NCBI RefSeq assembly: GCF_000255295.1
Contig: NC_017030.1
Span: 5,766,001 to 5,830,000 of the forward strand
Reading direction: 5' to 3'
Length of the DNA: 64,000 bases
Source of the DNA: Corallococcus coralloides DSM 2259
Lineage (GTDB): Bacteria > Myxococcota > Myxococcia > Myxococcales > Myxococcaceae
The position numbers and the translations under genes are program-made. Below the pieces are notes generated by a model, which saw only the letters and a list, made by a program, of their open reading frames with translations, was not told the origin of the DNA and did not search any database. Within the stretch, counting starts at the first letter, position 1. Each line of letters starts with the position of its first letter. Below, one piece after another: positions 24,705 through 60,785 of the stretch.

Positions 24705-27700
24705 TCAGTCCGGTGTATGACTCCACTGCGGGAGTTCATTCATCCGGGGCAGTGGCTCCTGCCAGGAGAACACCTGGTAGACATTGGCGAAGGGCATCCC
24801 CCAGACCTCATACCCTTCGATGCTCCAGTTGTTGCCGTCGCTTTCAGCGCGATCCCAGTTCGGCGCCTCATTCGGCGGTTCGAAGGCCCCATCGAAGGAC
24901 TTGTGCAGGTAGGACGTCCACGAAGACCTGTTCCAGATCGTGACCGTCATCGTCTTCCCGTCCGGGTTCGGGCTGAAGGTCGCGCGGTAGTTGCCAATGA
25001 CGAACGCGAACACGCCCTGGCTGTCATTGCGCCCCTGGACCCGCAGGGGATGGAACTTGCCCCCTGCCATGTCCACGGCCTCCATCCACTCATTGCGGGC
25101 ATTGATATAGGACATGCTGGAGCGCATGGCCTTCACAGGGGTGGAGTCCGCGTCGAAATGAAGCTCCCGGGCTCCCGTGCCCGTTGCCCAGGAGAAGGCA
25201 ATCTCAAAAGCCCAGGCCCAGCTTTCCGCCCGCTCGGACTGCGTCATGGACACGTCCGGCCGGGTCGCTGGCCGGGTGGGCCCCCGAGGATTCGCGGTCA
25301 TCGAGCTGGTCGGCCCCCGGTTTCCATACAGCAACCAGGCTTCCTCGGGCGTGAGTTCCACCGACATGTTCACGCCGCTGTCGTCGCTGGCGCTCTCCTT
25401 GCCGGTCGGGTCTGAGTCGGCCTCGGCACCCTTCCCGCGCCCGCACCCTGCGCAGCCGGTGCCGGGGCCCGTGACGTTTCCGGTTTCCCCCCATCCATAG
25501 GAGCCGTCGCCTTGCGGCCCATAGGTAGGACCGTCGCCCGAGTAGCTCCCCCCACCGCCCGAGGGCGAACCGGGGCCGGACGGGCCATCTCCCCCGCTGC
25601 CCGATGAGCCGTCGCCGCCTGGCCCGGTCGAGTCGAACCCCGTCGGGTCCACGAACGCGAGCGGGTTGTTCAAGACGTAGCTGTACCGATTGTACGACTG
25701 TCCGAAGTGAGGATACGTGACGTGCGGATCCGCGATGAGGAACCGGCCCAGCACGGGGTCATACATGCGTCCTTTCATGTTGATGAGCCCCGACTCCGCG
25801 TCCGCTTCGTGACCGGTGAAGCCCAGGTGCACGGCTCCGAACGGCGGGGAGATGGACGTGGTGAGCGACGCCGGTGAGCGACGGCTCCCGAATGGATCGA
25901 ACTTCATCCGCTCCTCCACGGCCCCCAGCGTGTTGGTGACTGTCTCCGTGGAGCCCAGCGGGTCCACGTGCAGGAACAACTCCCGGTCCACCTGGAAGGT
26001 CCCGCCGCTCTGCGTCCATACCACCTGCGCCACTTGCCGGTCCGCGCCGTGGATCTTGAAGACATGCTCGGTGGTGGAGCTTTTCCGCCGCTGCTCGTAG
26101 ACCTCGCCCGCGTACAGCGTCTGATCCATCGCAGGGCCCTGCGTGGACCTGCCCACCCGCTGCCGGTTCGCGTCATAGAAGTACAGCGTCGGCTGGCCTC
26201 CCACGGTGAGGGAAGCAGGAAGGTCGAACGACGTATAGGACACCTGCCGCCCCGTCCCCGTGAGCTGCCGGCCGTTGGCGTCATAGGTGTAACTCGACGT
26301 CACGCCTCCCTCGGTCATGCTCGTCACAGCGTGCGGGCCCGCTCCCGCGCCATACCCATACGTCACCGTGGAGCCCGGCCCGGACACCACCGTCCGATCC
26401 AGGAGGTTGCCATTCGGTGCATGGTGGTAGCGCAGCTCGGACAGGCTCCCGCCTTGCGCCACCTTCCAGGTCGTCAGGCGCTCCAGCCGGTCGTAGGTAA
26501 AGTCCTCCACCGTCTGGGCCAACAGGTCCTGGCGTTGCGACAGGTTGCCGTTGGGCTCGTACGTGTAGGCCAGGTCCTGGAGTGTCGTCAGGCCCAGCAC
26601 GGTCCGGATGGAGCGGACCTTCCCGTCGACGTCGTACTGTCGCACCGTCTCCGCCGTGTTGCCCATCCGCTCGTTCGTGAGCTGGCCATAGGCGTTGTAG
26701 GCCTGCGCCTCCCAGTAGAGGTGCTGGGTGGCCGGGTCCTGCACCGCGCGGAGGTAACCCCGGTCGTTGTACAGGCGCTCCACCTGGAGCCGCGTCCTGC
26801 CCGTCACGGCGGGATAGGTCAGGGTCTGGAGGCGACCATAGGCATCGTAGGTCCGGTCGATGTCCGCGGAGAAGAGCAGGTTGCTGGCGATCCACGCGGT
26901 CTGCTTCGGCCGGGACAGCGCGTCGAAGGTCGTCTCCATCCGGACCACCGCGTAGTGGCTGGCGTTGGTGCTCACCGCCACCTTGCCGATGCCATGGAGC
27001 GCGGTGTCCCAGGTGAAGTTGGAGCGGCCGTCGGACTTGTCCACCTGGGTGATCCGCCCCAGGGCATCTCGCGTGTACGTGGTCAGTGCGCCCATCGCGT
27101 CACGCGTGTCCTTCAGCTCCCCGAACGCGTTGAAGTTGAACCGCCGATCGCCCGCATCCGGATCGATCATGCGGGTCCGGCGTCCGCGCACGTCGTACTC
27201 GAAGGACGTGGTGTGCACGCCGCCAGGCTGCCGGACGCCCGTCATCACTCCGAAGGGGCCGTAGGTGTAATATGTGTAGACGCCGGGCCCGCCGCCTTCC
27301 AACTCGAAGTCAGCGCTGCCGCTCACGCGCTTCAGGTCGTCGAACTGGAGGACCGTGGTGTTCCGCTTCTCATCGAAGGTGGTGATGTAGCGGCCGGAGA
27401 ACCTGCGCTCCTTGAACGTGCCGTCGGGGTGCTGCTCCCGCAGCGGGCGATCCAGGTTGTCGTACGTGATGTTGAACAACGCCGGGAGCACGGGCTCCAG
27501 GTGCGGCAGTGCCCGGGAGACCGGGCGCCCCTTCGCGTCGTAGACCTGCTCCATGGCGACATACGCTCCTTCGTACGCCTGCCAGCGGCGGAGGACCTCG
27601 CGCCCCAGTCGGTCGTAGGTGATGTCCGCGCTCCGCGACGTGGTGGGCCCTGTCTTCACCGAAGCGGCAACCTTCGGTCGTCCCGCCCCATCCGCCAGGT

Positions 27701-30700
27701 GGCTGTACGTCACGTCCGCGGAGTCGGGCGAATCCTCGAAGCGCAGCCGGCCCAACCCGTCATACCGGTACATCACCTGGACCCCGTTCGGGTCCTGCAC
27801 GGCCGCGACGACGCCGAGCCCCGGATGATGGGCGACCTCCTGCGTGTGCCCCAGCGCGTTGGTGAACGCCTTCGGGTACGTCTGGTCGAGTTCATCGTAG
27901 GCGATGCGCTCGGTGCGGACCTGCCCCGAGCCCTCCGACACCACGGCGGAGACGAGCCCGAAGCCCGCGTCCCGCTCATAGGTCGTCGTGAGCAGCAACT
28001 CCGAGCCACCGTCGACGACGCCTGCGGGCGCTGTCGGCTCCACCCGCGTCCGCTGGAGCAGTCCCGTCCCAGGGTAATAGTCGTGCTCGACGACCCGCGT
28101 CCGCGTCCCTCCATCCAGAATGGTGTGGGTCTGGCTGAGCCGCCGCTGCTGGCTGATGAGCCAGTCCGATTCGGAGGTGTCGAACTGCGCGGTCGTGAGC
28201 ATCCGGTAGCGGTTGCCACTGGCGGCACCGCTGACGACCTCGTCCGTGAGTTCCTCCAGGCTCGTCACGTTGCCGTAGGCATCCTGGGCGCGCGTCTTCT
28301 GCCCCTGAAACAGCAGGTAGCCGCCCTCCTTCTCCTGCCAGGCCAGCATCTGCGGATACACGTCCAGCACCTTGCCGCCGTGACGGGATTCTGCCTGGTA
28401 GGTGCTGGAGGTCACCACTTCATAGGTGCCGCCGTCCTCCAGGGGGATCAGGGTCCGCAGTTCCAGCGGGAGCCCGGCCTTCGTGTAGAACGTGCCCTCG
28501 CGCGTGACGTTGTCGTACGTCGCGGTGCGGGTCGACAGGCGAAGCAGGTCCTGCTCGACGCGCCGGGCGAACCCCAACCAGCCGCGGCCCTTCCGGTCAA
28601 AACGGCCATCCTGGTAGGTGAACTTCGTGGCGCGAGGCTGGGCGCGCCCCGAGTCCTGTTCGTGGAGCCGCACCAGCCACAGCCCCGTGCGCGCACACCG
28701 CATGGGGTACGCACAGCTCTGCGCCGGGGTGTAGACGCTGGCATCCGACAGCGGCGCGTACTCGAAGCGCTCGAACGCGCTCAGGCCGTCATCCACGCGC
28801 GTGAGCAGGTCACCGGGCGTGCCCTGGCGCACGTAGACATGGAGGCTGCCGTTGACGACCTGGACGAAGTCCAGCTGGCCGTCGCCGTTCACGTCCAGGA
28901 CGTTGGACCAGTCCCAGCCCGCGGGCTCGGTGGCGGTGCCGGGGAACTGGCTGCCCACCGTGAACGGCAGCCGGACCTGCGTGAAACCCGTGCCCGTGGA
29001 CACGAGCACGGTGACCTTGCGCGGTAGCATCGGCGCCAGCGGATCCGAGCTCCCGCCCATCAACAGCAGGTCGTGCCGGCCATCGCCGTTGTAGTCCACG
29101 ACCCGAACGCCCGAGTCATCCAGGTTGAGCGTCCCCACCGTGTGGTTCTGGGCGCCCACGTTCCAGGCCACCGGTTCGGCGAAGCCGTTTCCCGTGTTCA
29201 CCGCGACCCGCAGCTGCCCCTGGCCCACCTGCGCGGCCACAGCATCCATCAAGCCGTCGCCCGTGACGTCCGCGAAGTAGTACTGCTTGCCATCGTCCTG
29301 GGCGAGCGACAGCGGCTGCGTCACCACGGTGTTCGTCGCGCCTTCCAGCCCGTACGCCTGGAAGCCCACGCCCGTGGAGCGGAGCAGCAGGCTCGACTTC
29401 CCGCTGCCATTCACGTCCACGGCATAGCCACGGACGTTGTTCTGGTGCCGCGGCGTCGTCGTCACATAGTTGGCGAGCGTGCCTGCGTTGTTCAGCCGGT
29501 AGCCCAGCGTCTGCCCCGGCATGCCGCCCTGCGCGTAGGCGCCCACGCCCCGAACCCACTCCGCGAAGCCGTCGCCGTTCAGGTCGAGCACGTACAGGCC
29601 GCGGGCCTGATGCACCCAGGGCTCCTGCGGATCGTCGACGAACTCGAACGCCGTGGAGGAACCCGAGGCCGTGGGACGGTAGAGGCAGTTCCGGTACTGG
29701 TAGCCGCCAAGCGATGACAGCTTCTTCCCGGTGATGACCAGCTCCAGCCGGTCATCCCCGTCGATGTCCAGGTACCGCTCCTCTCCTTCGGGGCAATGGC
29801 TGTCGTAGTACTTCACGGTACGGGGCGTGCCGTCGATACCGATCCCCGTGCTCAGGTAGAAGAACGCCGCGCCCTGGATGAGGTCGTCGCGCCCGTCCCC
29901 GTTGATGTCGCCCGTGAGCAGGTGGCCCTCGCTGTGAGCAATGTTCGTGTCGAGCTCCGTGAAGGTCGCGTCCCCTGGGGTCCAGGTGAAGCGCGTGCGA
30001 GGCAGACAGATGCCCGCGCCATCACACGCCTGCACCGCGTCCAGCCGGCTCCGCAGGCTGAGCGTGGCCAAGCCATAGGTCAGGGTGTAGGAGCGCAGCA
30101 GGCCCGGCGTCACCGGGTTGGGACCCCACATCTCGATGCGCTTCAGCCGCTGGGTGCGCTTCTGCTTGAGCCCGCCGACGAAGGCGTCGCTCGGGTCGGG
30201 CCGCGCCTCGTACTGGAACCGGACCGACCGCGTCGTCGTGCCCTGCGGATCCGCCGTGGAGCCCGTGTAGTCGATGCGGTCCGGGAGCTGCTCGATGGCG
30301 GAGGGGTCGCTCGGGTGGGATTGGAGGCGGTAGTCCACCCGGAGGTAGTTCCCCGAACGGTCCTCCACCCGGGAGACGCCCCACGCCCAGCGGACCTGCT
30401 GGCTGTAGTCCGTCGTATAGAAGCGCGGCACGGAGGGGCTCTGGTAGCTCAGCGCCACGCTCACGCGCGGGCCCTCCAGCGAGGCGTTGACGCCCCCGCC
30501 CATCGTCAGGATGCGGCCGTCCTTCAGGAAGACCTTGAAGGACGTGGGCCCCCGCGTGTCGGGGCTGAAGGACACGACCTTGATGTGGGAATCCTGCTCG
30601 GTGCGGTACTCGGACAGGTGCCCGCCGTAGGGGCTGGAGGTCCCCGTGGGCCCACCCGTCAGGACCAGCCGCTGACCATCCAGGCAGAAGCGGTCGCCCG

Positions 30701-31187
30701 CGTCGCCGTTGTCGAACCGGATCTCCCGGTCCGCGCCCTCATGGAGGGTGGTCCGGCGGCAGCGGGTAATGCGCGACAGGCCTGACAGAGACCAGCCCAC
30801 GCCCAGTTCCCCGTTGCCCATGCCACTGTCGTACTGGAGCGCCAGTCCCGGCTGCATGCCCGCGCGGCCGTCCGGCACCCACAAGGGAATGGAGTAGGCC
30901 GCCGTGCCGCTATGGCGAACCAGCCCCTGCCCCGAGAGTGTCCCCACGGCCAACCCGTTCACGGTCTCCGTGGCCAGGACCGTGTCGGAAGGAAGGCCCA
31001 GCGGGGCCGCCTGGGACGCGACCTGGGGCGAGCTCGTGGGGGCGGGAGCACAGTAGAGCAGCGGAAGGGACGCGAGCGCGCCCACCAGGAGAGAAATCCG
31101 TCGTCTGCGTCCATGTGAGGCTCCGGGGGAAGGAAGAAAGGGAATGCGCGCGCGATGCGCGACAGGGAACCGCCGTCTCAGAGGCAT
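24705..31187 (-). CDS. Giant SpvB / RHS-repeat lipoprotein
   Basis: This 2160-residue surface protein has a lipoprotein signal (ALASLPLLYC). An SpvB N-terminal domain follows (SIPLWVPDGRAGMQPGLAL, GVGWSLSGLSRI). Next come FG-GAP/VCBS repeats with calcium loops (DINGDGRDDL, DVNGDGQLDF, DYNGDGRHDL), a TcB/Mid-type region and many YD/RHS repeats (YDALGRI, YDANGRQL). The RHS core ends with GRFLIADPHV and NPLAFVDPTG. RHS shells encapsulate a variable C-terminal piece, here about 300 residues: a Gly/Ser/Pro linker, then a domain I do not recognise. No immunity gene lies downstream. I chose ATG 31187 as the start of the lipoprotein signal. Confidence 0.9.
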   Translation of the reverse strand: MPLRRRFPVAHRARIPFLPSPGASHGRRRRISLLVGALASLPLLYCAPAPTSSPQVASQAAPLGLPSDTVLATETVNGLAVGTLSGQGLVRHSGTAAYSIPLWVPDGRAGMQPGLALQYDSGMGNGELGVGWSLSGLSRITRCRRTTLHEGADREIRFDNGDAGDRFCLDGQRLVLTGGPTGTSSPYGGHLSEYRTEQDSHIKVVSFSPDTRGPTSFKVFLKDGRILTMGGGVNASLEGPRVSVALSYQSPSVPRFYTTDYSQQVRWAWGVSRVEDRSGNYLRVDYRLQSHPSDPSAIEQLPDRIDYTGSTADPQGTTTRSVRFQYEARPDPSDAFVGGLKQKRTQRLKRIEMWGPNPVTPGLLRSYTLTYGLATLSLRSRLDAVQACDGAGICLPRTRFTWTPGDATFTELDTNIAHSEGHLLTGDINGDGRDDLIQGAAFFYLSTGIGIDGTPRTVKYYDSHCPEGEERYLDIDGDDRLELVITGKKLSSLGGYQYRNCLYRPTASGSSTAFEFVDDPQEPWVHQARGLYVLDLNGDGFAEWVRGVGAYAQGGMPGQTLGYRLNNAGTLANYVTTTPRHQNNVRGYAVDVNGSGKSSLLLRSTGVGFQAYGLEGATNTVVTQPLSLAQDDGKQYYFADVTGDGLMDAVAAQVGQGQLRVAVNTGNGFAEPVAWNVGAQNHTVGTLNLDDSGVRVVDYNGDGRHDLLLMGGSSDPLAPMLPRKVTVLVSTGTGFTQVRLPFTVGSQFPGTATEPAGWDWSNVLDVNGDGQLDFVQVVNGSLHVYVRQGTPGDLLTRVDDGLSAFERFEYAPLSDASVYTPAQSCAYPMRCARTGLWLVRLHEQDSGRAQPRATKFTYQDGRFDRKGRGWLGFARRVEQDLLRLSTRTATYDNVTREGTFYTKAGLPLELRTLIPLEDGGTYEVVTSSTYQAESRHGGKVLDVYPQMLAWQEKEGGYLLFQGQKTRAQDAYGNVTSLEELTDEVVSGAASGNRYRMLTTAQFDTSESDWLISQQRRLSQTHTILDGGTRTRVVEHDYYPGTGLLQRTRVEPTAPAGVVDGGSELLLTTTYERDAGFGLVSAVVSEGSGQVRTERIAYDELDQTYPKAFTNALGHTQEVAHHPGLGVVAAVQDPNGVQVMYRYDGLGRLRFEDSPDSADVTYSHLADGAGRPKVAASVKTGPTTSRSADITYDRLGREVLRRWQAYEGAYVAMEQVYDAKGRPVSRALPHLEPVLPALFNITYDNLDRPLREQHPDGTFKERRFSGRYITTFDEKRNTTVLQFDDLKRVSGSADFELEGGGPGVYTYYTYGPFGVMTGVRQPGGVHTTSFEYDVRGRRTRMIDPDAGDRRFNFNAFGELKDTRDAMGALTTYTRDALGRITQVDKSDGRSNFTWDTALHGIGKVAVSTNASHYAVVRMETTFDALSRPKQTAWIASNLLFSADIDRTYDAYGRLQTLTYPAVTGRTRLQVERLYNDRGYLRAVQDPATQHLYWEAQAYNAYGQLTNERMGNTAETVRQYDVDGKVRSIRTVLGLTTLQDLAYTYEPNGNLSQRQDLLAQTVEDFTYDRLERLTTWKVAQGGSLSELRYHHAPNGNLLDRTVVSGPGSTVTYGYGAGAGPHAVTSMTEGGVTSSYTYDANGRQLTGTGRQVSYTSFDLPASLTVGGQPTLYFYDANRQRVGRSTQGPAMDQTLYAGEVYEQRRKSSTTEHVFKIHGADRQVAQVVWTQSGGTFQVDRELFLHVDPLGSTETVTNTLGAVEERMKFDPFGSRRSPASLTTSISPPFGAVHLGFTGHEADAESGLINMKGRMYDPVLGRFLIADPHVTYPHFGQSYNRYSYVLNNPLAFVDPTGFDSTGPGGDGSSGSGGDGPSGPGSPSGGGGSYSGDGPTYGPQGDGSYGWGETGNVTGPGTGCAGCGRGKGAEADSDPTGKESASDDSGVNMSVELTPEEAWLLYGNRGPTSSMTANPRGPTRPATRPDVSMTQSERAESWAWAFEIAFSWATGTGARELHFDADSTPVKAMRSSMSYINARNEWMEAVDMAGGKFHPLRVQGRNDSQGVFAFVIGNYRATFSPNPDGKTMTVTIWNRSSWTSYLHKSFDGAFEPPNEAPNWDRAESDGNNWSIEGYEVWGMPFANVYQVFSWQEPLPRMNELPQWSHTPD

Positions 31188-31310
31188 GGACGTTCCGGAA
31201 GTGGAGAGAATTGATTCCTGCCTCGGCCTGGCAGGTCCCCTGGATAGGCCCGGTGGCGTGACGGGAGCGTGACGGTCCCGCCAAGGAGCGGAAGAGGGTC
31301 GCTCGCCCAC

Positions 31311-52971: not shown

Positions 52972-53045
52972 GACCCCGTAGCTCAGTTGGATAGAGCGGC
53001 GGTTTCCTAAACCGCAGGCCACAGGTTCGATTCCTGTCGGGGTCA
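52972..53045 (+). tRNA. tRNA-Arg (anticodon CCU)
   Basis: A full cloverleaf can be drawn. The acceptor is GACCCCG/CGGGGTC, the D arm GCTC/GAGC, the anticodon stem GCGGT/ACCGC with loop TTCCTAA (anticodon CCT, reading AGG), and the T arm ACAGG/CCTGT with TTCGATT. The discriminator A is at 53045 and CCA is not encoded. A rare-codon tRNA in this GC-rich genome. A promoter precedes it and a strong terminator follows. Confidence 0.95.
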
Positions 53046-53083: not shown

Positions 53084-53097
53084 CTGTCCGGTGGCGC

Positions 53098-53709
53098 TCA
53101 AGTCTCGCCGGCCAGCGCCGCGCGGTGGATGGCCACCCAGAAGTCGGCGGCCCGCCGGGCCCCTTCGAGCAGCGGCTCCGGGTGCCCGGCCCCCAGCGCC
53201 GCGCAGAGTGCCTGGGCCCGCGCGCCGTGCTCCAGGTCCACGTCGAGGTGGACGAGGATGAAGCGCGCCTTCGTCCGCTCCAGCCCGAGCCGCCCCAGCC
53301 CCTGGCGGGCCTCGCCTCCCAGGTGCCGCGCCACGCCCTCCAGCACGCGCAGCGCGCCCAGGAAGGCGAGCTGCCGCTCCGGCCCGATGCCCTCCCAGAA
53401 GGCGTGGAAGTCGGCCACCTCACGAGGCGTGTCGGACGAGGGCTCGCGCCCGAAGGCCGCGAGGTCCGCCCTGGCCAGCAGGTAGTGCGACTGCTCGTCC
53501 CCTGCCAGCTCCGTGAAGAAGTCCTTCAGCTCGGGGAGCGTGGCGCGCTCGGCCGCGAGCCGCAGCCGGTCTCCGCTGCGCCGCGTGTAGTGGTACATCA
53601 TGTCGAGGAACGCCACGTAGCGCTCTGGCGTCACCGCCGGCAGCCAGCTCGCGACCTGCCGCGCCATCCCGACGGTGAGCGCCTCCAACTGCTCCTCAAT
53701 CGACGACAT
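53098..53709 (-). CDS. Haem-oxygenase-like diiron oxidase
   Basis: This 203-residue all-helical protein matches the haem-oxygenase-like diiron oxidase/iron-containing redox enzyme family. Candidate metal ligands are H40, E72 with H75 (GDEQSHY), and H154, D158 and H161 in VHLDVDLEHG (H-x3-D-x2-H). Relatives decarboxylate fatty acids to terminal alkenes (UndA) or oxidise amine and amino-acid substrates using O2. It is the last gene of a six-gene minus-strand operon; ATG 53709 lies two bases after the CapA-like stop. A fatty-acyl or lipid substrate is likely given the desaturase in the same operon (inference). Confidence 0.75.
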   Translation of the reverse strand: MSSIEEQLEALTVGMARQVASWLPAVTPERYVAFLDMMYHYTRRSGDRLRLAAERATLPELKDFFTELAGDEQSHYLLARADLAAFGREPSSDTPREVADFHAFWEGIGPERQLAFLGALRVLEGVARHLGGEARQGLGRLGLERTKARFILVHLDVDLEHGARAQALCAALGAGHPEPLLEGARRAADFWVAIHRAALAGET

Positions 53710-53711
53710 CC

Positions 53712-54941
53712 TCAGTCCCTCCGGTCCGAAAGCAGCGCGCCCAACGTCCGCCGGGCGTGCGCGAGGTGCGGCGCCGCCCGCTGGGGGGGCAGCTCGTCCA
53801 GGCGCACCACGCCCGCGTCGAGGAGCCCCTCCCCACCAAGTCCCCGTCCACAGGCGGTGGGCACCGCGCGCAGATCCACCGGCTGGAGCACGCCCCTCGC
53901 GTCCCGGGCGAGCGCGAGCTTCAGCACGGCCCCCGTCTGGCACGCCAGCGTGGGCATGATGCTCAGGAAGTTGCCCAGCGAGTACGCGATGAGCCCCATC
54001 CGCGCGGGCCCGCCCCGGCGCACCTGCGTGGGGCAGGTGGCGTCCGCGCCGTCGATGGACACCCACTCCACCGGCTGGAGGACATGCGGCGAGGAGCCCA
54101 GGAGGAGGTCCGCCCCGCGCTCGATGAGCCGCCAGGCGTGCTCGCGCTGGAGGGCCTCGGGCCAGTACTCGTACTCGAAGCCCCAGTGCGGCATCAGCAC
54201 CACCAGGTCCGGCCCCACCGCGCGAGCGGCGTCGATGAGCGCGCCCAGCCGCTCCCAGTCCGGCGCGTGGAGGGGGCTGCCCAGCCGCGTCACCGGCACC
54301 CCGGCGGGCGGCGCCCCCACGAGGTGGTTGATGTCATACGTCACGGCGGCGATGCCCATCCGCACCCCGTCCACCTCCAGGGCGGCCACCGCGTCCTCGG
54401 GCCGGGGGCCTCCCACGCAGCGGTGCTGGGAGGAGGCCAGCACCGTCCCCCGGGTCCGCTCCAGCCCTTCGGCGCCCTGGTCGAGCGCGTGGTTGTTGCA
54501 GAGGGAGAAGACGCGGTGGCGCGCCGCGCCCTCCCAGGCCGCGAGGTAGTCCGGCGGAGCGTTGTAGTGGAGCGTCTCGTAGACGAGCCGGGGCACGGGC
54601 CGCGCCGGGTCCACCGGCGTCTCCAGGTTGGCGAAGGCCACCGCGTCATTCGCCATCACCTCCCGGACGCCAGGAGAGAGGGCGCGGTGGAAGCCGCTGC
54701 GAATCCACATCATGTCGCCCACGGCGCTCAGCCGGAGCTCTGGCGCGCCCTCGTGCCGCCAGCTCCCCGAGGCGAGGTGCCGGGCGACTCGCGCGAAGTG
54801 CTCCCCGGTTTCGGCCGAGCGCGGCTGTGGCAGGTGCAGGAGGCTCTTGGTGATGTAGCGCAGGTTGAGGTCCCACCGGGACAGCGGCCAGCGGCCGTCC
54901 TCGTAGCGGAGGTCCGCGTACAGCCGGCGCAGGGCGTTCAT
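53712..54941 (-). CDS. CapA-like metallophosphoesterase
   Basis: The 409-residue protein has the CapA/PGA-synthesis metallophosphatase motifs: SAVGDMMW (D76), FANLETPV, SLCNNHALDQG, MPHWGFEYEY and SSPHVLQPVEW. In the last motif serine 284 sits where the family usually has a histidine (G-x-H-P-H), so one metal ligand is lost. Classical CapA helps make poly-gamma-glutamate, but no CapB or CapC is present. Here the gene overlaps the desaturase by four bases, so it is likely a phosphatase or hydrolase for the operon product. No signal peptide is visible, so it is predicted cytoplasmic. Confidence 0.78.
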   Translation of the reverse strand: MNALRRLYADLRYEDGRWPLSRWDLNLRYITKSLLHLPQPRSAETGEHFARVARHLASGSWRHEGAPELRLSAVGDMMWIRSGFHRALSPGVREVMANDAVAFANLETPVDPARPVPRLVYETLHYNAPPDYLAAWEGAARHRVFSLCNNHALDQGAEGLERTRGTVLASSQHRCVGGPRPEDAVAALEVDGVRMGIAAVTYDINHLVGAPPAGVPVTRLGSPLHAPDWERLGALIDAARAVGPDLVVLMPHWGFEYEYWPEALQREHAWRLIERGADLLLGSSPHVLQPVEWVSIDGADATCPTQVRRGGPARMGLIAYSLGNFLSIMPTLACQTGAVLKLALARDARGVLQPVDLRAVPTACGRGLGGEGLLDAGVVRLDELPPQRAAPHLAHARRTLGALLSDRRD

Positions 54942-55918
54942 GGGCGCTTTCGCTCCAGGGTGACGAGTCGCACGTCCTCCTCCACCACCATGGGGCCGGC
55001 CAGGAGGGCCCGCCACATGACGTGGAGGTAGCTGTCGAAGACGGGGGCCCCGCGCGCGAGCAGACCGGGGCGCAGGCGCGCGTGCAGCCGCGCGAGGTTG
55101 TAGCCGGGCACCCGCGGGTAGAGGTGGTGGTCCAGGTGGTGGTTGAGGCCGTTCCACAGGAAGGTGACGAGCCGGGTGCTGCGCACCGTCGTCGCGGTGT
55201 GGAAGCGGTCGCCGCGCCAGACGTTGGCGTGGTGGTCGGAGATGGACTTGAGCCCGTTGAGGGGGCTGGCGAAGAGCACCGGCACAAGCCAGCACTCCAC
55301 CGCGCTCCCGAGGAGTCCGTGGCCCGCCAGGAGCCAGAAGAGCAGCGCGTAGAAGGCCCCGTAGCCGAGCAGCACCCGCGCATGGCGGCGCAGGCGGGCG
55401 GCGTCGAAGTGCTGCACCGGGTAGAGGACGTTGAAGTAGACGAGGCTGAGCGGCAGGCCCAGCAGCACGGTGGCGTAGAAGAGTGCCCACAGTCCGGGCG
55501 AGCGGCGGCCCGCGTTGTAGGCGTCAGGGTCCTTCTCCGTGCGGTTCCAGCGGTGGTGCGCGAGGTGGTCGTGCCGCATCGGCTCGTAGGCGATGCCCAC
55601 GAGCAGGCTGAGCCCGTTGCCGAAGAGGCGGTTCTGCCAGGGCCTCGGGAAGAGGGTGTCGTGCCACGCGTCGTGGTCAAGCTGGATGAGCCCCATGACG
55701 CCCTGGGCCGCCAGCAGCCACAGGGGCAGCTTCAGCCAGAAGCCGCTGACGTGCGCGAGCCCCACGCCGGCCAGCCCCCACACGCCCAGGTGGAGGGCCG
55801 CCATGCCCAGCGCCCGCGCGGGGCGGATGCGCAGCAGTTCCACCCACTCGTCGCGGGAGGGGCCCGGCCCGGCGGGGGCAGCGGGTGAAGCCAGGACGGG
55901 GGCGAGGGCGGGCTGCAT
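54938..55918 (-). CDS. Membrane fatty acid desaturase
   Basis: This 326-residue membrane protein has the three histidine boxes of acyl-lipid desaturases: HDAWHD (82-87), HDHLAHH (116-122) and HHLDHHLYP (about 255-263), plus several hydrophobic helices. It introduces a double bond (or hydroxylates) in fatty acyl chains using diiron and O2. It overlaps the CapA-like gene by four bases and follows the methyltransferase-like gene within a few bases. It resembles the FADS/beta-carotene-ketolase branch. The chain position is unknown. Confidence 0.85.
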   Translation of the reverse strand: MQPALAPVLASPAAPAGPGPSRDEWVELLRIRPARALGMAALHLGVWGLAGVGLAHVSGFWLKLPLWLLAAQGVMGLIQLDHDAWHDTLFPRPWQNRLFGNGLSLLVGIAYEPMRHDHLAHHRWNRTEKDPDAYNAGRRSPGLWALFYATVLLGLPLSLVYFNVLYPVQHFDAARLRRHARVLLGYGAFYALLFWLLAGHGLLGSAVECWLVPVLFASPLNGLKSISDHHANVWRGDRFHTATTVRSTRLVTFLWNGLNHHLDHHLYPRVPGYNLARLHARLRPGLLARGAPVFDSYLHVMWRALLAGPMVVEEDVRLVTLERKRP

Positions 55919-55925
55919 GGGGCCT

Positions 55926-56537
55926 TTAGAGGTAACGGGGGACGCGCTGGCGGTAGCGCGCGTAGGCCTCGCCGAGGCGGGCGGAGAGGTAGCGCTCCTC
56001 CTGGAGCACCAGCCCGTGGAACAGCCCCCCCAGCACCGCGCACGCCCCGAGCGTCACCAGCGACGGAGCCCAGAGCGAGGCGCCCACGAGGTACAGGTAG
56101 GAGAAGATGTAGATGGGGTTGCGCGAGCAGCGGTGGAGCCCTCTCTCGTGCAGCACGGGCGGGGCCTCCCCCGCGTCCACGCCGATGCGGAACGCCGCGC
56201 CCATGCCGTACTGCGCCGCCAGCATGCCCACCAGCCCGAGCACGCCCAGCGCCCAGCCCACCTCCGGCGGAAGGGCCAGCAGGGGCCGGCCCCAGGGCAG
56301 CTCGGACCAGCGCGGCCAGAGCGCCGCCGCCACCACCGAGCCCGCCCACACCAGCGAGACGCCGCTGATGCGCCGCGTGAGGCGCGTGTGGGCGGAGTCG
56401 GCCCTGGTGCTCCGGTAGGCCAGCGGGCCGCGGCCGAAACGCAGGCGGTAGACGAGGCTTGCGCCCAGGTGCCCCAGCAGCAGGTGCAGCGAGATGAAGC
56501 CCAGGTAGAGCGCGGGCGCGTCGCGAAGCCCCTTCAT
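55926..56537 (-). CDS. Isoprenylcysteine-methyltransferase-like membrane protein
   Basis: The 203-residue protein has about four or five membrane helices and a C-terminal ICMT/PEMT-type region: GLHRCSRNPIYIFSYLYL, then EERYLSARLGEAYARYRQRV. These bacterial relatives methylate small lipophilic or carboxylate substrates with S-adenosylmethionine. Its ATG overlaps the stop of the condensation-like gene by four bases. A carboxyl methyltransferase would fit an acyl product made by this operon (inference). Confidence 0.78.
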   Translation of the reverse strand: MKGLRDAPALYLGFISLHLLLGHLGASLVYRLRFGRGPLAYRSTRADSAHTRLTRRISGVSLVWAGSVVAAALWPRWSELPWGRPLLALPPEVGWALGVLGLVGMLAAQYGMGAAFRIGVDAGEAPPVLHERGLHRCSRNPIYIFSYLYLVGASLWAPSLVTLGACAVLGGLFHGLVLQEERYLSARLGEAYARYRQRVPRYL

Positions 56538-57808
56538 GGTCCCACCACCTCCGCCGCAAGCCCGAAGCCCGAGGACGCCCAGCCCGCGAGCTGCTCGGTG
56601 AAGTCGCGCAGCTCGCCCCGGGTCCACAGTCCCTCGAATGTCGCCGTGTTGATGTTGAGCGTGTCGCCAAAGCCCAGGCCCGTCGCGCCCCAGGTGGCCG
56701 TGTGGCTGCGCAGGGAGTGGATGCGGAAGGGCGCGTCCACGAAGTGCTTGTCGAGCCGCCCCAGGTAGGTCGCCACCAGCGTGTTGGTGCGGGGCTCGGC
56801 CACCAGCCCGGGGCGCGCGTTGCGCCGCAGCACGGGCCCCGGGGCGAGCCGCGCCACCGCCATGCACTCCAGCGCCGTCGTCCAGTGCACGCCCTCGTCG
56901 AGCACGCGCCGCAGCGCCTCGCGCACCAGCGCCGCCAGGGCGGGCGCGTCCGCCAGCCGGGCGCGGACCTCCCGCAGGGGAAGCTCCAGCGGCACCGTCG
57001 AGCAGCCGTTGCCCAGCATCCGCCCCAGCCCCAGCATGCGCCGCAGGTCCACCGGCACCCGCAGGCGGATGAGCCCGTCCTTCGTGGGCTCGCGCAGCGC
57101 GACGCCCGCCAGCAGCGCGGCGAAGAAGACCTCCGAGGCCTGGACGTCCGTGCGGCCCGCCGGGAGTGTCAGGCGCGCCGTCGCCATCAACGAGCGGCCC
57201 GCGGTGTCTCCACTGCGGCGCAGGCCCAGGCCCCGCTGCGCGAGGAGCCGGCGGCGGGGGCTTACGAGGCCCAGCACCCGGCCCGGCCCGCGCAGCGCCG
57301 CGAGCAGCACCTTGCCATCCGTCAGCGTCGAGGGGCCCAGCGGGGGCGACTGGGACGCGCGCCCCGCGCAGTGCAGCCAGAGCCGCTCCAGCAGGTGGGC
57401 GAGCGCCTTGGCGTCCCCAATCGCGTGGTGGAGCTGGATGGCGAAGAGCCACGGGCCCGGCGCGCCATCCGACAGGGGGCGGAGGTGCAGCCGCAGCGGC
57501 ACGTCCCTCGCGAGGTCCACCCGGGTGTTGATGATCCGCGTCACCGCCTCGGGCTCGTCCAGCGGCTCGGCGCCTTCCAGCAGGGCCGCGTCCACCGCCT
57601 CGTCCGTGCGCGGCGCGGGCACCCACGCCCCGCGCGCGTCGTCCCAGGCCACGTTGAGGCGCTCGCTCTCGCGCACCAGGGCGCGCAAGGCCCCGCGCAG
57701 CCGCGCCACGTCGGGCCGCGCGTCGATGCGCAGCAGCACCGTGGCCCAGATGGTGGCCACCTCGCCGTCCAGCCGCGCGAGGAGCGTGTCTACGAAGTTC
57801 GCGCGCAT
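56534..57808 (-). CDS. Condensation / wax-ester-synthase-like acyltransferase
   Basis: This protein of about 424 residues has the CoA-dependent acyltransferase fold. The active-site motif HHAIGDA is at 127-133 (HHxxxDG-type), and a DFGWG-like region near the end has drifted (TGLGFGD...NIN). The layout is that of wax-ester synthase/DGAT or a stand-alone condensation domain. It should join an acyl-CoA or acyl-carrier to an alcohol or amine. It is not part of a megasynthase. The start is ATG 57808 or 57820, overlapping the end of the upstream gene; the 3' end overlaps the methyltransferase start. Confidence 0.75.
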   Translation of the reverse strand: MRANFVDTLLARLDGEVATIWATVLLRIDARPDVARLRGALRALVRESERLNVAWDDARGAWVPAPRTDEAVDAALLEGAEPLDEPEAVTRIINTRVDLARDVPLRLHLRPLSDGAPGPWLFAIQLHHAIGDAKALAHLLERLWLHCAGRASQSPPLGPSTLTDGKVLLAALRGPGRVLGLVSPRRRLLAQRGLGLRRSGDTAGRSLMATARLTLPAGRTDVQASEVFFAALLAGVALREPTKDGLIRLRVPVDLRRMLGLGRMLGNGCSTVPLELPLREVRARLADAPALAALVREALRRVLDEGVHWTTALECMAVARLAPGPVLRRNARPGLVAEPRTNTLVATYLGRLDKHFVDAPFRIHSLRSHTATWGATGLGFGDTLNINTATFEGLWTRGELRDFTEQLAGWASSGFGLAAEVVGP

Positions 57809-58854
57809 CGCTCCACCCATCCGCTCCACAGGGCCCGGGCCGCCTCGCCGTCCAGCCGCGCCCGCCCCACCGCCTCGCGCGCCCGCTCCGGCGCCGGCAG
57901 GTGCTGGAAGACGATGTCGTCGGGCGCGTCCAGGCGCGGGCGGAGGCCCGTCGGCAGGTAGCCCGCCGCGAGGAGCACGGGCGTGGCCTCGGCCACCCGC
58001 TGGGGTTCGCCCATGGACAGGTGGACCAGGTCCACGCGCGCCCGCGAGGACGGGAGCGCCGTGGCCCCCTGCCCTTCCCCGGCAGGCCCCACCAGCTCCC
58101 GCCGTTCGAGCCGCAGGGATTCGTTCCAGTCGAGCGGGCGCGGCACGAGGCCCCCGGCGCGAGGGCGGCGCTCCAGCGGCGTCAGCTCCACCGTCCCCGG
58201 CAGGCCCGAGGCGGCGAGGATGGACGCGAGCCACTCCCCCCACGGCCCCGCGGGCAGGAAGCGCCGGCGCGGAGGCAGCGGCGCGAGCACCGTCGTCATC
58301 GCCAGCGCCTGCATCGGCAGGCCCGAGCCCTCCACCCCCACCAGCGTCTCCCCCTCCGTGTAGTCGACGATGAGGCCCACCGGCACGGCCCGCATGAAGC
58401 GCGACGCGTAGCGCTGCGCCATGAGGTGCAGCGTGGACGTCTGCTGGTGCAGGAAGCCCACGCGCGCGTTGAGCAGCTCTCGCCTGAGCAGCTCCAGGAG
58501 GTGGCTCCACAGCCGCTCGTGCTCGGAGCGGTCCATGGCGGTGCGCCGGCTGGACAGGGCCACGGAGAGCCCCGAGTCCAGCGAGTCCCGCCCCGGCTTG
58601 CACCACAGCCCCGTGTGCCAGAGGAGCGTGCCCCGGGCGTCGAACTCCCCCAGGCTGAGCAGCGCGCCGGCCCTCCAGAGCCGCGAGGCCCCTCCAGGCT
58701 CATGGAGGAAGCGGTAGGAGTAGCTCCCGGCGTAGCGCGCGTGGAGCAGCTCGCGCAGCGCGGGCTCATCGGGCTCCGCCAGCCAGCGGGTGTGCTCGCT
58801 GGGCTGGGCGGCGCGAAGGCCGTCAAAAGGGGTGGCGGCGCGTTCCCGGCACAT
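57790..58854 (-). CDS. GNAT-like acyltransferase, first gene of the lipid operon
   Basis: This 354-residue soluble protein has the feel of a GCN5-type N-acyltransferase. YAGSYSYRFLHEPGG and LLSLGEFDARGTLLWHTGLW form the front strands; GFLHQQTSTLHLMAQRYASR and FMRAVPVGLIVDYTEGE resemble the acyl-CoA-binding arch, and a second half repeats a similar layout. No family name is certain. It is the promoter-proximal gene of the operon, with its start beside the divergent spacer. Its tail overlaps the next gene, so the pair is coupled. An acyl-transfer role is inferred. Confidence 0.6.
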   Translation of the reverse strand: MCRERAATPFDGLRAAQPSEHTRWLAEPDEPALRELLHARYAGSYSYRFLHEPGGASRLWRAGALLSLGEFDARGTLLWHTGLWCKPGRDSLDSGLSVALSSRRTAMDRSEHERLWSHLLELLRRELLNARVGFLHQQTSTLHLMAQRYASRFMRAVPVGLIVDYTEGETLVGVEGSGLPMQALAMTTVLAPLPPRRRFLPAGPWGEWLASILAASGLPGTVELTPLERRPRAGGLVPRPLDWNESLRLERRELVGPAGEGQGATALPSSRARVDLVHLSMGEPQRVAEATPVLLAAGYLPTGLRPRLDAPDDIVFQHLPAPERAREAVGRARLDGEAARALWSGWVERCARTS

Positions 58855-59195
58855 GGAGCGTCAGCAATGCACCAACAGGGCCAGCCGGGAAGCCCTCCTC
58901 CTTCCGAGGGGATGGGTCCGGCCGCCGCCCCGCGCGCCCATCGGGTGTGCAGCCCGCTACACGCAGGTGGAGTACCCGGCTGCACAGGCGGCAAGCGCCT
59001 GCCCGGGAGCGTACGCACCACCACGGAACGGCACTCCTTGCGGACGACGCCCGCGCGCTCCCGGTGCACCCGCCGTCTTCCGAGGCAAGCCCGGAAGTCC
59101 GCACCTTGAAGTCAGGCGGGGAATCGTCAACATTGGCGGCCCATCCGCGTGCGTCCGGGCCCCCCGGTTCCGGCGGACGCCCTCGCGAGACCTCC
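58855..59195. other. Divergent spacer between lipid operon and metallo-hydrolase gene
   Basis: These 341 bases separate two divergent starts and must carry both promoters. One weak candidate for the plus strand is TTGAAG at 59106-59111 with AACATT at 59129-59134 (17-base spacing). I see no RNA gene or strong palindrome. Confidence 0.35.
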
Positions 59196-60785
59196 ATGCT
59201 CGACCGCCCGATGTACCTGAAGCCCGATGTCGCCATCGAGCCGCTGTTCAACCAGTGGTACGTCTGGTGGTACCTCATCTCCCCCGCCACGGCGCCGCTG
59301 TTCGTCTCCCGCCTGCACCTGAAGCTGATGCAGTCGTTCGTCGCGAACCCGGACGTGCACGTGGCCGCGCTGCAGAACCCGGCGCTGATGGGCGGCCCCT
59401 TCATCAACCACCCCGTGTCGCGCGTGAACGAGGTGAAGGCGCTGCTCGACCGCACCACCCGCGAGCAGGCGGACATGCTGGCCTACACCAAGGCCGTGTC
59501 GGACCTGGAGCAGCTCCTGGCCAGCTCCAAGGGCGAGTCCCTGGAGCCGCTCTACGCCAAGGTGCCGGACATGCTCCGCGGCTTCGTGGAGCTGCACTAC
59601 GACCTGGCCCACCGCGCCAACGCCCGCATCATGGAGCCGCTGCTCTACCGCAGCAGCCTCTACAAGGAATCCGCGCAGAGCATCTCGCTGATGCGCGTGG
59701 CCGGTGACGCGCGCAAGTACGTCTTCAGCACCCCGCGCCTGGAGGGCGACTCCCCCCTCTGGCTCCAGGTGCCCTACCGGCACGAGGGCATCGACGCCCT
59801 CTTCCGCATGCGCCACACGCCGGGCAGCCCCGGTCAGGTGGCGGAGATGCTGGGCGTGCCGTCCTCCGCCGCGGAGGCCTTCGCGGACCTCTTCACGGAG
59901 ACCGCCCCGCGCAAGCCCGAGCCGTACACGGGCTCCGGCGTGCGCGTGCGCTACTTCGGCCACGCGTGCGTGCTGATGGAGACGCGGGAGGTGTCCGTCC
60001 TCACCGACCCCGTCATCAGCTACGAGTTCCCCACGGACCAGCGCCGCTTCACCCACGCGGACCTGCCGGAGAAGATCGACTACGTCCTGATCACCCACGG
60101 CCACGCGGACCACCTGATGATGGAGACGCTGCTGCAACTGCGTCACCGCATCGGGACCATCGTCGTGCCCCGCTCGAACGCGTACTCGCTGGCGGACCCC
60201 TCGCTGCGCCTGGTGCTGGAGAAGACGGGCTTCAAGAACGTCATCGAGATCGACGACCTGCAGGAGATTCAAATCCCCGGCGGGTCGCTGATGGGCATCC
60301 CCTTCATCGGCGAGCACAGCGACCTGGCGGTGCAGGCGAAGACGGCGCACCTGGTGCGGCTGGCCGGCCGCTCGCTGCTGATGGCCGCGGACTCCAACGC
60401 GCTGGAGCCGCGCATGTACCAGCACCTGTCGGAGCTGGTGGGCCCGCTGGACGCGCTCTACCTGGGCATGGAGTGCGAGGGCGGCCCGATGAGCTGGATG
60501 TACGGCCCGCTGCTCAGCCAGCCCCTGCCGCGCAAGATGGACCAGTCGCGGCGGCTCAACGGCTCCGACAGCGCCCGCGCCACGGAGATCCTCAATCACC
60601 TGAACCCGAAAGAGGTCTTCATCTACGCCATGGGCCAGGAGCCCTGGCTGCGCCACGTGATGGTGCTCCAGTACGACGAGACCGCGCCCCAGATGATCGA
60701 ATCCAACAAGTTCATCGAGGTCTGCAAGGGCCGCAGCATCCCCGCCGCGCGGCCCTTCCTGAGCATGGAGCGCATCCTGGAGTAG
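59196..60785 (+). CDS. Metallo-beta-lactamase-fold hydrolase with helical N-domain
   Basis: This 529-residue protein has an all-helical N-terminal domain of about 240 residues (MLDRPMYLKPDVAIEPLFNQ..., LHLKLMQSFVANPDVHV). An MBL-fold domain follows with YFGHACVLMETREVSVLTDP, the zinc motif THGHADH (HxHxDH 301-306) and a late FIGEHSDLA. The fold suits hydrolysis of an ester, phosphodiester or thioester. There is no signal peptide. It is divergent from the six-gene lipid operon and may serve the same product, for example in release or tailoring (inference). Start ATG 59196; the open frame further upstream looks artefactual. Confidence 0.82.
   Translation: MLDRPMYLKPDVAIEPLFNQWYVWWYLISPATAPLFVSRLHLKLMQSFVANPDVHVAALQNPALMGGPFINHPVSRVNEVKALLDRTTREQADMLAYTKAVSDLEQLLASSKGESLEPLYAKVPDMLRGFVELHYDLAHRANARIMEPLLYRSSLYKESAQSISLMRVAGDARKYVFSTPRLEGDSPLWLQVPYRHEGIDALFRMRHTPGSPGQVAEMLGVPSSAAEAFADLFTETAPRKPEPYTGSGVRVRYFGHACVLMETREVSVLTDPVISYEFPTDQRRFTHADLPEKIDYVLITHGHADHLMMETLLQLRHRIGTIVVPRSNAYSLADPSLRLVLEKTGFKNVIEIDDLQEIQIPGGSLMGIPFIGEHSDLAVQAKTAHLVRLAGRSLLMAADSNALEPRMYQHLSELVGPLDALYLGMECEGGPMSWMYGPLLSQPLPRKMDQSRRLNGSDSARATEILNHLNPKEVFIYAMGQEPWLRHVMVLQYDETAPQMIESNKFIEVCKGRSIPAARPFLSMERILE

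Follow-up and report, generated by a model that had tools for sequence, protein, structure and literature searches.

A compact six-gene operon of Corallococcus and its relatives, apparently mobile and predicted to make a small metabolite that is acylated, oxidised and methylated

The stretch of the Corallococcus coralloides DSM 2259 genome (10,080,619 bases) analysed here, 64,000 nucleotides long and hereafter called the window, holds six minus-strand genes, g1 to g6, that run from position 58854 down to 53098 with spacings of −19, −4, +7, −4 and +2 nt (Table 1). An earlier reading of the letters alone, referred to below as the sequence-only reading, had described a compact operon of six overlapping or abutting minus-strand genes that joins acyl transfer and methylation to two O2-type metal oxidases and lacks a megasynthase. 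All six genes are as it described them, with spacings between +7 and −19 nt, and the family matches given below agree with that set of chemistries. No carrier-protein, adenylation or CoA-ligase gene was found among the six operon genes, and there is no megasynthase. This six-gene set, referred to as the cassette where its copies are compared between genomes, is the subject of this report.

Table 1. Features of the operon and of its insertion site (window coordinates).
Feature	Position	Strand	Length or remark
g1, GNAT-fold acyltransferase-like protein	57790..58854	-	354 aa
g2, stand-alone condensation-superfamily acyltransferase	56534..57808	-	424 aa; HHxxxD H127, H128, D132; 19-nt overlap with g1
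g3, ICMT/PEMT-type methyltransferase	55926..56537	-	203 aa
g4, PF00487 membrane diiron-type oxidase	54938..55918	-	326 aa
g5, CapA/PGA_cap-like metalloenzyme	53712..54941	-	409 aa; MslH-like dyads D76/H286 and H151/D154
g6, haem-oxygenase-like (HDO) oxidase	53098..53709	-	203 aa; proposed ligands E72, H75, E124, H154, D158, H161
Upstream control region travelling with the operon (tentative)	58855..59006	-	18-bp palindrome-like site and sigma54-like element
Extra window DNA relative to the empty site in genome G006	53092..59068		48 bp in G006
tRNA-Arg(CCT) adjoining the insertion	52972..53045	+	

Nearly all carrier genomes examined have the operon intact and with its gene order unchanged. A g5 orthologue (83–100%) occurs in 16 of 59 genomes, i.e., the window's and 58 relatives, the window's included, and the six genes lie in order around g5 in the other 15, with g1 of G008 cut by a contig edge (G and L numbers are our labels for genomes and loci). 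A survey of 195 Myxococcota genomes, which covered g2, g4 and g6, found cassette-type g2 in 27 of them, g6 in the same 27 (26 full length, from 1.3e-95, and a fragment in G002 at 3e-55; next match 4e-14) and g4 in 26 of the same 27 (weakest 7e-168; next match 3e-36). Matches to g2 near 1e-11, in four further genomes and in some carriers, lie in large open reading frames (ORFs) and look like condensation (C) domains of non-ribosomal peptide synthetases (NRPSs). In the fetched DNA, all six genes lie on one stretch in 24 of the 27 carriers, the other three being G008, with g1 at a contig edge, G143, where the cassette is split over two contigs, and the fragmented G002. The 27 Myxococcota carriers all belong to one family and to six genera; within Corallococcus, the cassette is present in 14 of 16 genomes, that of G002 in pieces, and is absent from G010 and G014.

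When two short peptide patterns from the g2 alignment were run against about 85,000 species genomes, 21 loci came up. The set is complete and in order in 15 of them; contig ends truncate L058, L061, L069 and L077, and the gaps in L076 and L073 have other or uncertain causes. The complete distant loci, at 34–57% identity, come from metagenome-assembled genomes (MAGs) labelled Planctomycetota (L074), a proteobacterium (L075) and Byssovorax (L072), in each of which the G+C content of the cassette is near that of its own contig. A myxobacterial contaminant is unlikely in L074, since its 43% G+C fits a contig of 39%, compared with 75% in the window. A g1/g2 overlap of 16–19 nt is kept in L068, L072, L074, L075 and L076. 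Because other genera, and MAGs from other lineages, carry the six genes in identical order, the set is more than a chance neighbourhood. The sequence-only reading had looked to conservation of the full set with a patchy, lineage-specific spread as support for a dedicated pathway, and such a spread was found (27 of 195 genomes, and MAGs of other lineages). It had also named two patterns that would refute its reading, homologues scattered singly and a pair of haem-oxygenase-like diiron oxidase (HDO) and desaturase known from housekeeping lipid modification without the other genes. For g2, g4 and g6 in the 195 Myxococcota genomes, neither pattern held: cassette-type copies are not scattered singly, and the other g4 and g6 family members are far weaker matches. 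Ten flank ORFs from L068, L072, L074, L075 and L076 revealed no seventh common gene; a phosphoglucomutase precedes g1 in L072, and the upstream proteins of L072 and L076 are unrelated. In the planctomycete MAG, a cytochrome P450 gene (L074:10578-12041) directly follows g6 and may represent an added tailoring step.

Identity at fourfold sites over g2–g5 was compared with that of gyrB in 20 of the 25 loci with complete g2–g5, namely those with a gyrB sequence; G013, with no rpoB match, was left out of the rpoB comparison. Relative to the window, the cassette is 96.9% identical in Pyxidicoccus caerfyrddinensis (G135; gyrB 73.1%), 96.2% in Myxococcus eversor (G137; gyrB 74.0%) and 96.2% in G030 (gyrB 66.7%), with 97.3%, 96.7%, 95.3% and 93.6% in G155, G150, G146 and G026, respectively. 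Across these seven genomes gyrB lies at 66.7–75.9%, and rpoB at 68.5–76.7% in the five measured. The window's version of the cassette is shared within its genus by G001 and G008 (94.7% and 94.0%), and the cassettes of G003, G004, G005, G006 and G011, of the same genus, are 69.6–71.2% identical to it at gyrB identities of 83.6–95.0%. This second version also crosses genera, the cassette of G006 being 96.5% identical to that of Archangium violaceum (G115; gyrB 67.4%) and 95.0% to that of G145 (gyrB 71.3%). Over 20 genomes, the gyrB tree is rejected by the cassette data (delta lnL, the log-likelihood difference, 4794.5; p-AU, from the approximately unbiased test, 5e-159) and the cassette tree by the gyrB data (delta lnL 1598; p-AU 3.9e-5). 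These comparisons indicate that the operon has moved between genera as a unit. An excerpt of a Corallococcus study describes the pan-genome as open and biosynthetic clusters as mostly accessory (PMC6306037), which fits a mobile pathway.

Two of the enzymes, g1 and g2, are candidates for acyl transfer. The window copy of g1 has no Pfam match, and no acetyltransferase Pfam model was matched at E ≤ 1 across 12 g1 homologues, which leaves room for a remote relation to OlsB. Its predicted model (pLDDT, the predicted local distance difference test, 84.7) contains a GNAT fold over about residues 20–193, and beyond residue ~193 the succession of strands and helices hints at another GNAT half, in reduced form; the structural likenesses of g1, and those of g6 below, are those among the matches listed. 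The window copy of g2 matches Condensation PF00668 at 9.4e-5 (21.7 bits, under the Pfam cut-off of 30.6), as do 20 of 23 homologues at E ≤ 1, and the HHxxxD motif is invariant in all 23. A profile of these homologues matched a solved didomain of peptidyl carrier protein and C domain (PCP-C) at 3.5e-8 and PapA5 at 0.014. Thus, of the wax-synthase/condensation-like character given to g2 by the sequence-only reading, membership of the condensation superfamily stands, and NRPS C domains are nearer than WS/DGAT or PapA5. A role in anti-phage defence was discarded, the sole match, that of g2 to PDC-S48 at 0.0071, being treated as chance.

The families assigned earlier to the other four genes were each confirmed. 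The ICMT-like nature of g3 is supported by the PEMT domain (5.5e-7, 30.4 bits, over the cut-off of 25) and by a match to the solved ICMT (1.2e-6); its RNP-Y and EE motifs, which we take to be the ICMT/PEMT signature, are kept in 8/8 sequences. A simple hydropathy scan showed transmembrane (TM)-like segments in both g3 and g4. The desaturase-type g4 matches FA_desaturase PF00487 at 9.8e-35 (121 bits, over the cut-off of 29.7) and possesses three histidine boxes, HxxxH, HxxHH and HxxHH, invariant in 9/9 sequences. Its window copy falls under the equivalog cut-offs of CrtR (46.3 of 475 bits), GntB (37 of 380) and DesA (34.3 of 500). The haem-oxygenase-like g6 matches Haem_oxygenas_2 PF14518 at 9.1e-19, and its AlphaFold2 (AF2) model (pLDDT 96.2), a PF14518-type helical bundle, matches the structures of CADD and HrmI. 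An excerpt of PMC13108848 gives a rule of three histidine and three carboxylate ligands for HDOs and describes the characterised members as acting mostly on fatty or amino acids. Candidate metal ligands of g6 were assigned by position and spacing; E72, E124, H154, D158 and H161 are invariant in 13/13 aligned sequences and H75 is kept in 12/13. Among plasmid records, one Vibrio plasmid carries a g6 match, at 24%. The active sites of g2, g4, g6 and g3 look intact as judged from these conserved residues.

The CapA-like g5 is a member of the PGA_cap family (PF09587, 7.6e-42, 144 bits, over the cut-off of 27). Among solved proteins, the g5 profile matches just one, the lasso-peptide epimerase MslH (2.8e-7), which, according to the consulted part of PMC10406935, requires two His/Asp pairs and acts at the alpha carbon of an amino acid. 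The two MslH dyads, His88/Asp91 and His295/Asp11, align to H151/D154 and H286/D76 of g5, which are kept in 8 aligned g5 sequences, and three of the MslH metal ligands Glu44, Asn87, His259 and His261 align to E107, N150 and H252. Because g5 reaches only 27.1 bits against the MslH model NF038314 (cut-off 700), it is compared with MslH rather than filed as MslH. At the last site, the motif is SPH in 8/8 cassette g5 copies, HPH in all 14 ordinary CapA relatives fetched and GPH in MslH; a simple hydropathy scan showed no TM-like segment in g5. Since the MslH dyads are kept, SPH replaces HPH and no TM-like segment is seen, an acid/base role such as epimerisation is, in our view, more likely for g5 than phosphoester hydrolysis. 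The resemblance to MslH in catalytic residues also suggests an amino-acid-derived substrate. In G011, a short relic of a second g5 (L054:1413-1625, 68% identity, residues 116-186) lies about 7 kb from the intact cassette.

Upstream of g1, the window contains a sigma54-like -24/-12 element, TGGCCCTGTTGGTGCA, 14 nt before the gene and an 18-bp palindrome-like site about 109 nt before it. Of 19 loci in the myxobacterial family, 17 have a pair of TGGCC-type -24 and TGCA-type -12 elements 13–14 nt before the g1 start, and 17 have a TGTGCAG-N4-CTGCACA-like site (at most 3 mismatches) that starts 97–120 nt before g1; these counts are not independent, because the loci are related. The four distant MAG loci lack the sigma54-like element at the corresponding position, the match in L075 being 94 nt before g1. 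According to part of a study on Myxococcus, sigma54 together with upstream activator sites can drive natural-product genes there (PMC7910581). Control of the operon through the sigma54-like element and the palindrome is put forward tentatively from these motifs.

The insertion site lies beside a tRNA gene. In G006, the positions flanking the insertion in the window (53091 and 59069) are separated by only 48 bp, next to the same tRNA-Arg, in place of the 5,977 bp of the window, and the cassette of G006 is found elsewhere in its genome. Identity to the window spans from ~53101-53124 to ~58790-59006 and, in almost every relative, breaks off at either end; the identity of G150 extends through the tRNA gene. 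The exact breakpoints of the cassette vary among genomes, and the window's junction appears to lie within the last g6 codons, which differ from those of the closest copies. The tRNA-Arg(CCT) gene adjoins the cassette in G000, G030, G150 and G155 and lies 2–5 kb off in G001 and G026; no other scanned locus showed it next to the cassette. Inspection of the cassette ends by eye showed neither terminal repeats nor a target duplication, and the last 45 bases of the tRNA gene have no repeat of at least 12 nt elsewhere in the window.

Several observations concern the flanks. The divergent gene at 59208-60785 (+), which had been read as an MBL-fold gene that might add a release step, encodes CmlA_N (4e-84) ahead of the MBL domain, as in CmlA-type diiron beta-hydroxylases. 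It occurs in 12/12 relatives tested (73–98% nucleotide identity), two of which have no cassette, and it stands beside the empty site of G006. The release step was therefore not borne out: this is a host gene, kept in relatives that lack the cassette, which does not travel with the operon and was ruled out as a pathway member. About 68 bp of the right flank (window 59007-59074) are 96% identical to G135:C89:506908-506975 at the upstream junction of the G135 cassette, and G135's own cmlA-type gene lies ~23 kb from its cassette; the match is perhaps a trace of the transfer path. A 1-kb zinc-dehydrogenase region (L059:14779-15806 and L060:1246-2272), 96.5% identical between two Myxococcus, lies just after the cassette in one and ~6.5 kb before it in the other. 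Elsewhere in the window, at 24705-31310 (-), a large ORF matches SpvB, TcdB middle, FG-GAP and RHS domains.

Taken as a whole, the operon is best read as a self-contained mobile unit, kept whole and in order, that would, by prediction, assemble a small metabolite through acylation, oxidation and methylation, a reading to which we give even odds (about 0.5). The product is probably an acylated, oxidised metabolite of amino-acid type, as judged from the enzyme families. The sequence-only reading is thus borne out in part: the modified fatty-acid or lipo-amide product that it suggested is hypothetical, and a terminal alkene or an N-oxidised group may be present. The starting materials, likely an amino acid and an acyl donor, would come from primary metabolism, since carrier-protein, adenylation and CoA-ligase genes are all absent from the operon and its copies have no neighbour in common. 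In the proposed scheme, g1 and g2 would acylate the amine or amino acid and attach a further acyl or aminoacyl unit; g4 would hydroxylate or desaturate; g6 would perform a second O2-dependent step, either N-oxygenation, desaturation or C–C cleavage; g5 would serve as an acid/base catalyst, most likely as an alpha-carbon epimerase as in MslH rather than a phosphoesterase; and g3 would methyl-cap a carboxylate or an amine. Through the palindrome and the sigma54-like element, a host would be able to activate the operon at whatever site it has entered. An amino-acid or amine core would fit all six families, given the substrates of HDOs, the name of the GntB model (arginine hydroxylase) and the action of MslH at the alpha carbon. 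A stronger version is less likely than not. In it, this megasynthase-free pathway would pass between bacterial genera with everything from its control region to the last stop codon, recur in unrelated lineages and carry no mobility gene, and two O2-activating metal enzymes and a calcineurin-fold epimerase outside lasso peptides would yield a novel class of acylated amino-acid metabolites.

A number of points weigh against the reading of a mobile and intact pathway. The 20 flank ORFs from 12 loci that were looked at, of 44 listed by codon score, include no integrase or transposase. None of the operon enzymes reaches a curated NCBIfam cut-off. The match of g5 to MslH is weak (2.8e-7), and g5 has no histidine at the position aligned to the metal ligand His261. 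Some copies are damaged or incomplete: the cassette of G002 (Corallococcus sp. CA053C; L056, L069, L073, L138) is broken over several contigs, g1 of L069 is in two frames, and the g1 and g2 pieces of L073 lie ~3 kb apart, in a broken copy or a misassembly. The contig of L076 continues for 0.67 kb beyond g4 without a g5 match, while g5 from residue 87 onwards and g6 are at the start of another contig. In the control region, the sigma54-like element fits the consensus only partly; in a shuffle control that covered this element only, between 2 and 31 of 300 single-base shuffles yielded a site as good, depending on which of the 17 loci with the element was shuffled. Two of 19 loci (G026 and L066) have lost its -12 GC, and the palindrome was not seen in G026, G029 or the four distant MAG loci.

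The main rival is a lipid head-group pathway, in which a modified membrane aminolipid is made in the manner of ornithine lipids, with g1 N-acylating the head group, g2 adding a second chain, g3 methylating, g4 and g6 oxidising and g5 removing a phosphate. In its favour, the set includes two proteins of acyltransferase type, a methyltransferase of PEMT type and an oxidase of PF00487, g3 and g4 have TM-like segments, and planctomycetes and myxobacteria are both among the carriers. However, g1 has no Pfam match in 12 homologues, g2 is nearest to NRPS condensation domains, and g5 lacks the histidine of ordinary CapA relatives and keeps the MslH dyads; a patchy spread with frequent transfer would also be unusual for a structural lipid. 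We consider the aminolipid rather unlikely. A fatty-acid product with a terminal alkene or alkyne, formed by g6 through decarboxylation or desaturation in the manner of UndA or MboA after desaturation by g4, is given a low probability. The same holds for a product that acts as a stress protectant instead of a weapon or signal: the HDO protein DtpC protects dried Acinetobacter, and the consulted part of PMC13232832 states that its HDO ligand residues are needed for desiccation survival, a protective small molecule being one possibility, but no link of DtpC to the six-gene set was seen, and the distribution is patchy and fast-moving.

A chance or housekeeping neighbourhood that forms no pathway is very improbable. 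Each family is common, and the same genomes have generic CapA, PF14518 and PF00487 proteins at other places; such a neighbourhood is difficult to reconcile with a fixed order at 34–57% identity across lineages, joint presence and absence in 195 genomes and joint transfer. An unchanged set and order in myxobacteria and a planctomycete MAG alike argue instead for selection for one product, and the frequent transfer among predatory myxobacteria would suggest a role of this product in competition or signalling.

Each enzyme family of the operon is already known; the combination was not found in print, no description of it having been found in the open-licence PMC literature. If the preferred reading of an acylated, oxidised amino-acid-type product is true, HDO, CapA-type and condensation-type enzymes would be given one common substrate, and the operon would be a new natural-product pathway without a giant synthase. 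Standard cluster finders key on synthases of the kind that this operon is without. The pathway is small (six genes in 5.9 kb), has its own upstream region and draws on families known for unusual chemistry, and the operon could be removed or expressed as one piece.

Several known systems invite comparison. In the selfish-operon idea, gene clusters spread as whole units, and this operon likewise moves with its own upstream region and without shared partner genes; here, however, the breakpoints vary by genome, no terminal repeats were seen by eye and no mobility gene was found among the 20 flank ORFs. Ornithine-lipid (Ols) pathways comprise a similar series of activities, i.e., N-acylation, second acylation, methylation and hydroxylation, from which the operon differs by a g1 without a Pfam match, a condensation-type g2 and an added HDO and CapA-type enzyme. 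Like the stand-alone acyltransferases PapA5 and WS/DGAT, g2 is a full-length single domain with HHxxxD and without a carrier protein, but it is closer to NRPS C domains. For g4, the models matched by all 9 aligned sequences (best 2.8e-12) are GntB (arginine hydroxylase) and the carotenoid oxygenases CrtR/CrtW, of the PF00487 superfamily, although the window copy has only 46.3, 37 and 27.5 bits relative to the cut-offs of 475, 380 and 350 for CrtR, GntB and CrtW. To our knowledge, the partner genes of g6 are unlike those of the described HDO pathways; g6 is 8–19% identical to solved structures, among the matches listed, and shares with the HDO superfamily (UndA, BesC, SznF, HrmI, CADD, PolF, AetD) the fold and a candidate ligand set of three histidines and three carboxylates. 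The comparison with MslH, of the CapA/PGA_cap fold, has its differences, as the lasso precursor and cyclase are absent from the six genes and g5 has no histidine at His261 and a conserved N-terminal region of ~60 residues of its own; what g5 shares with MslH is both His/Asp dyads, three of four metal ligands and the loss of the first histidine of HPH.

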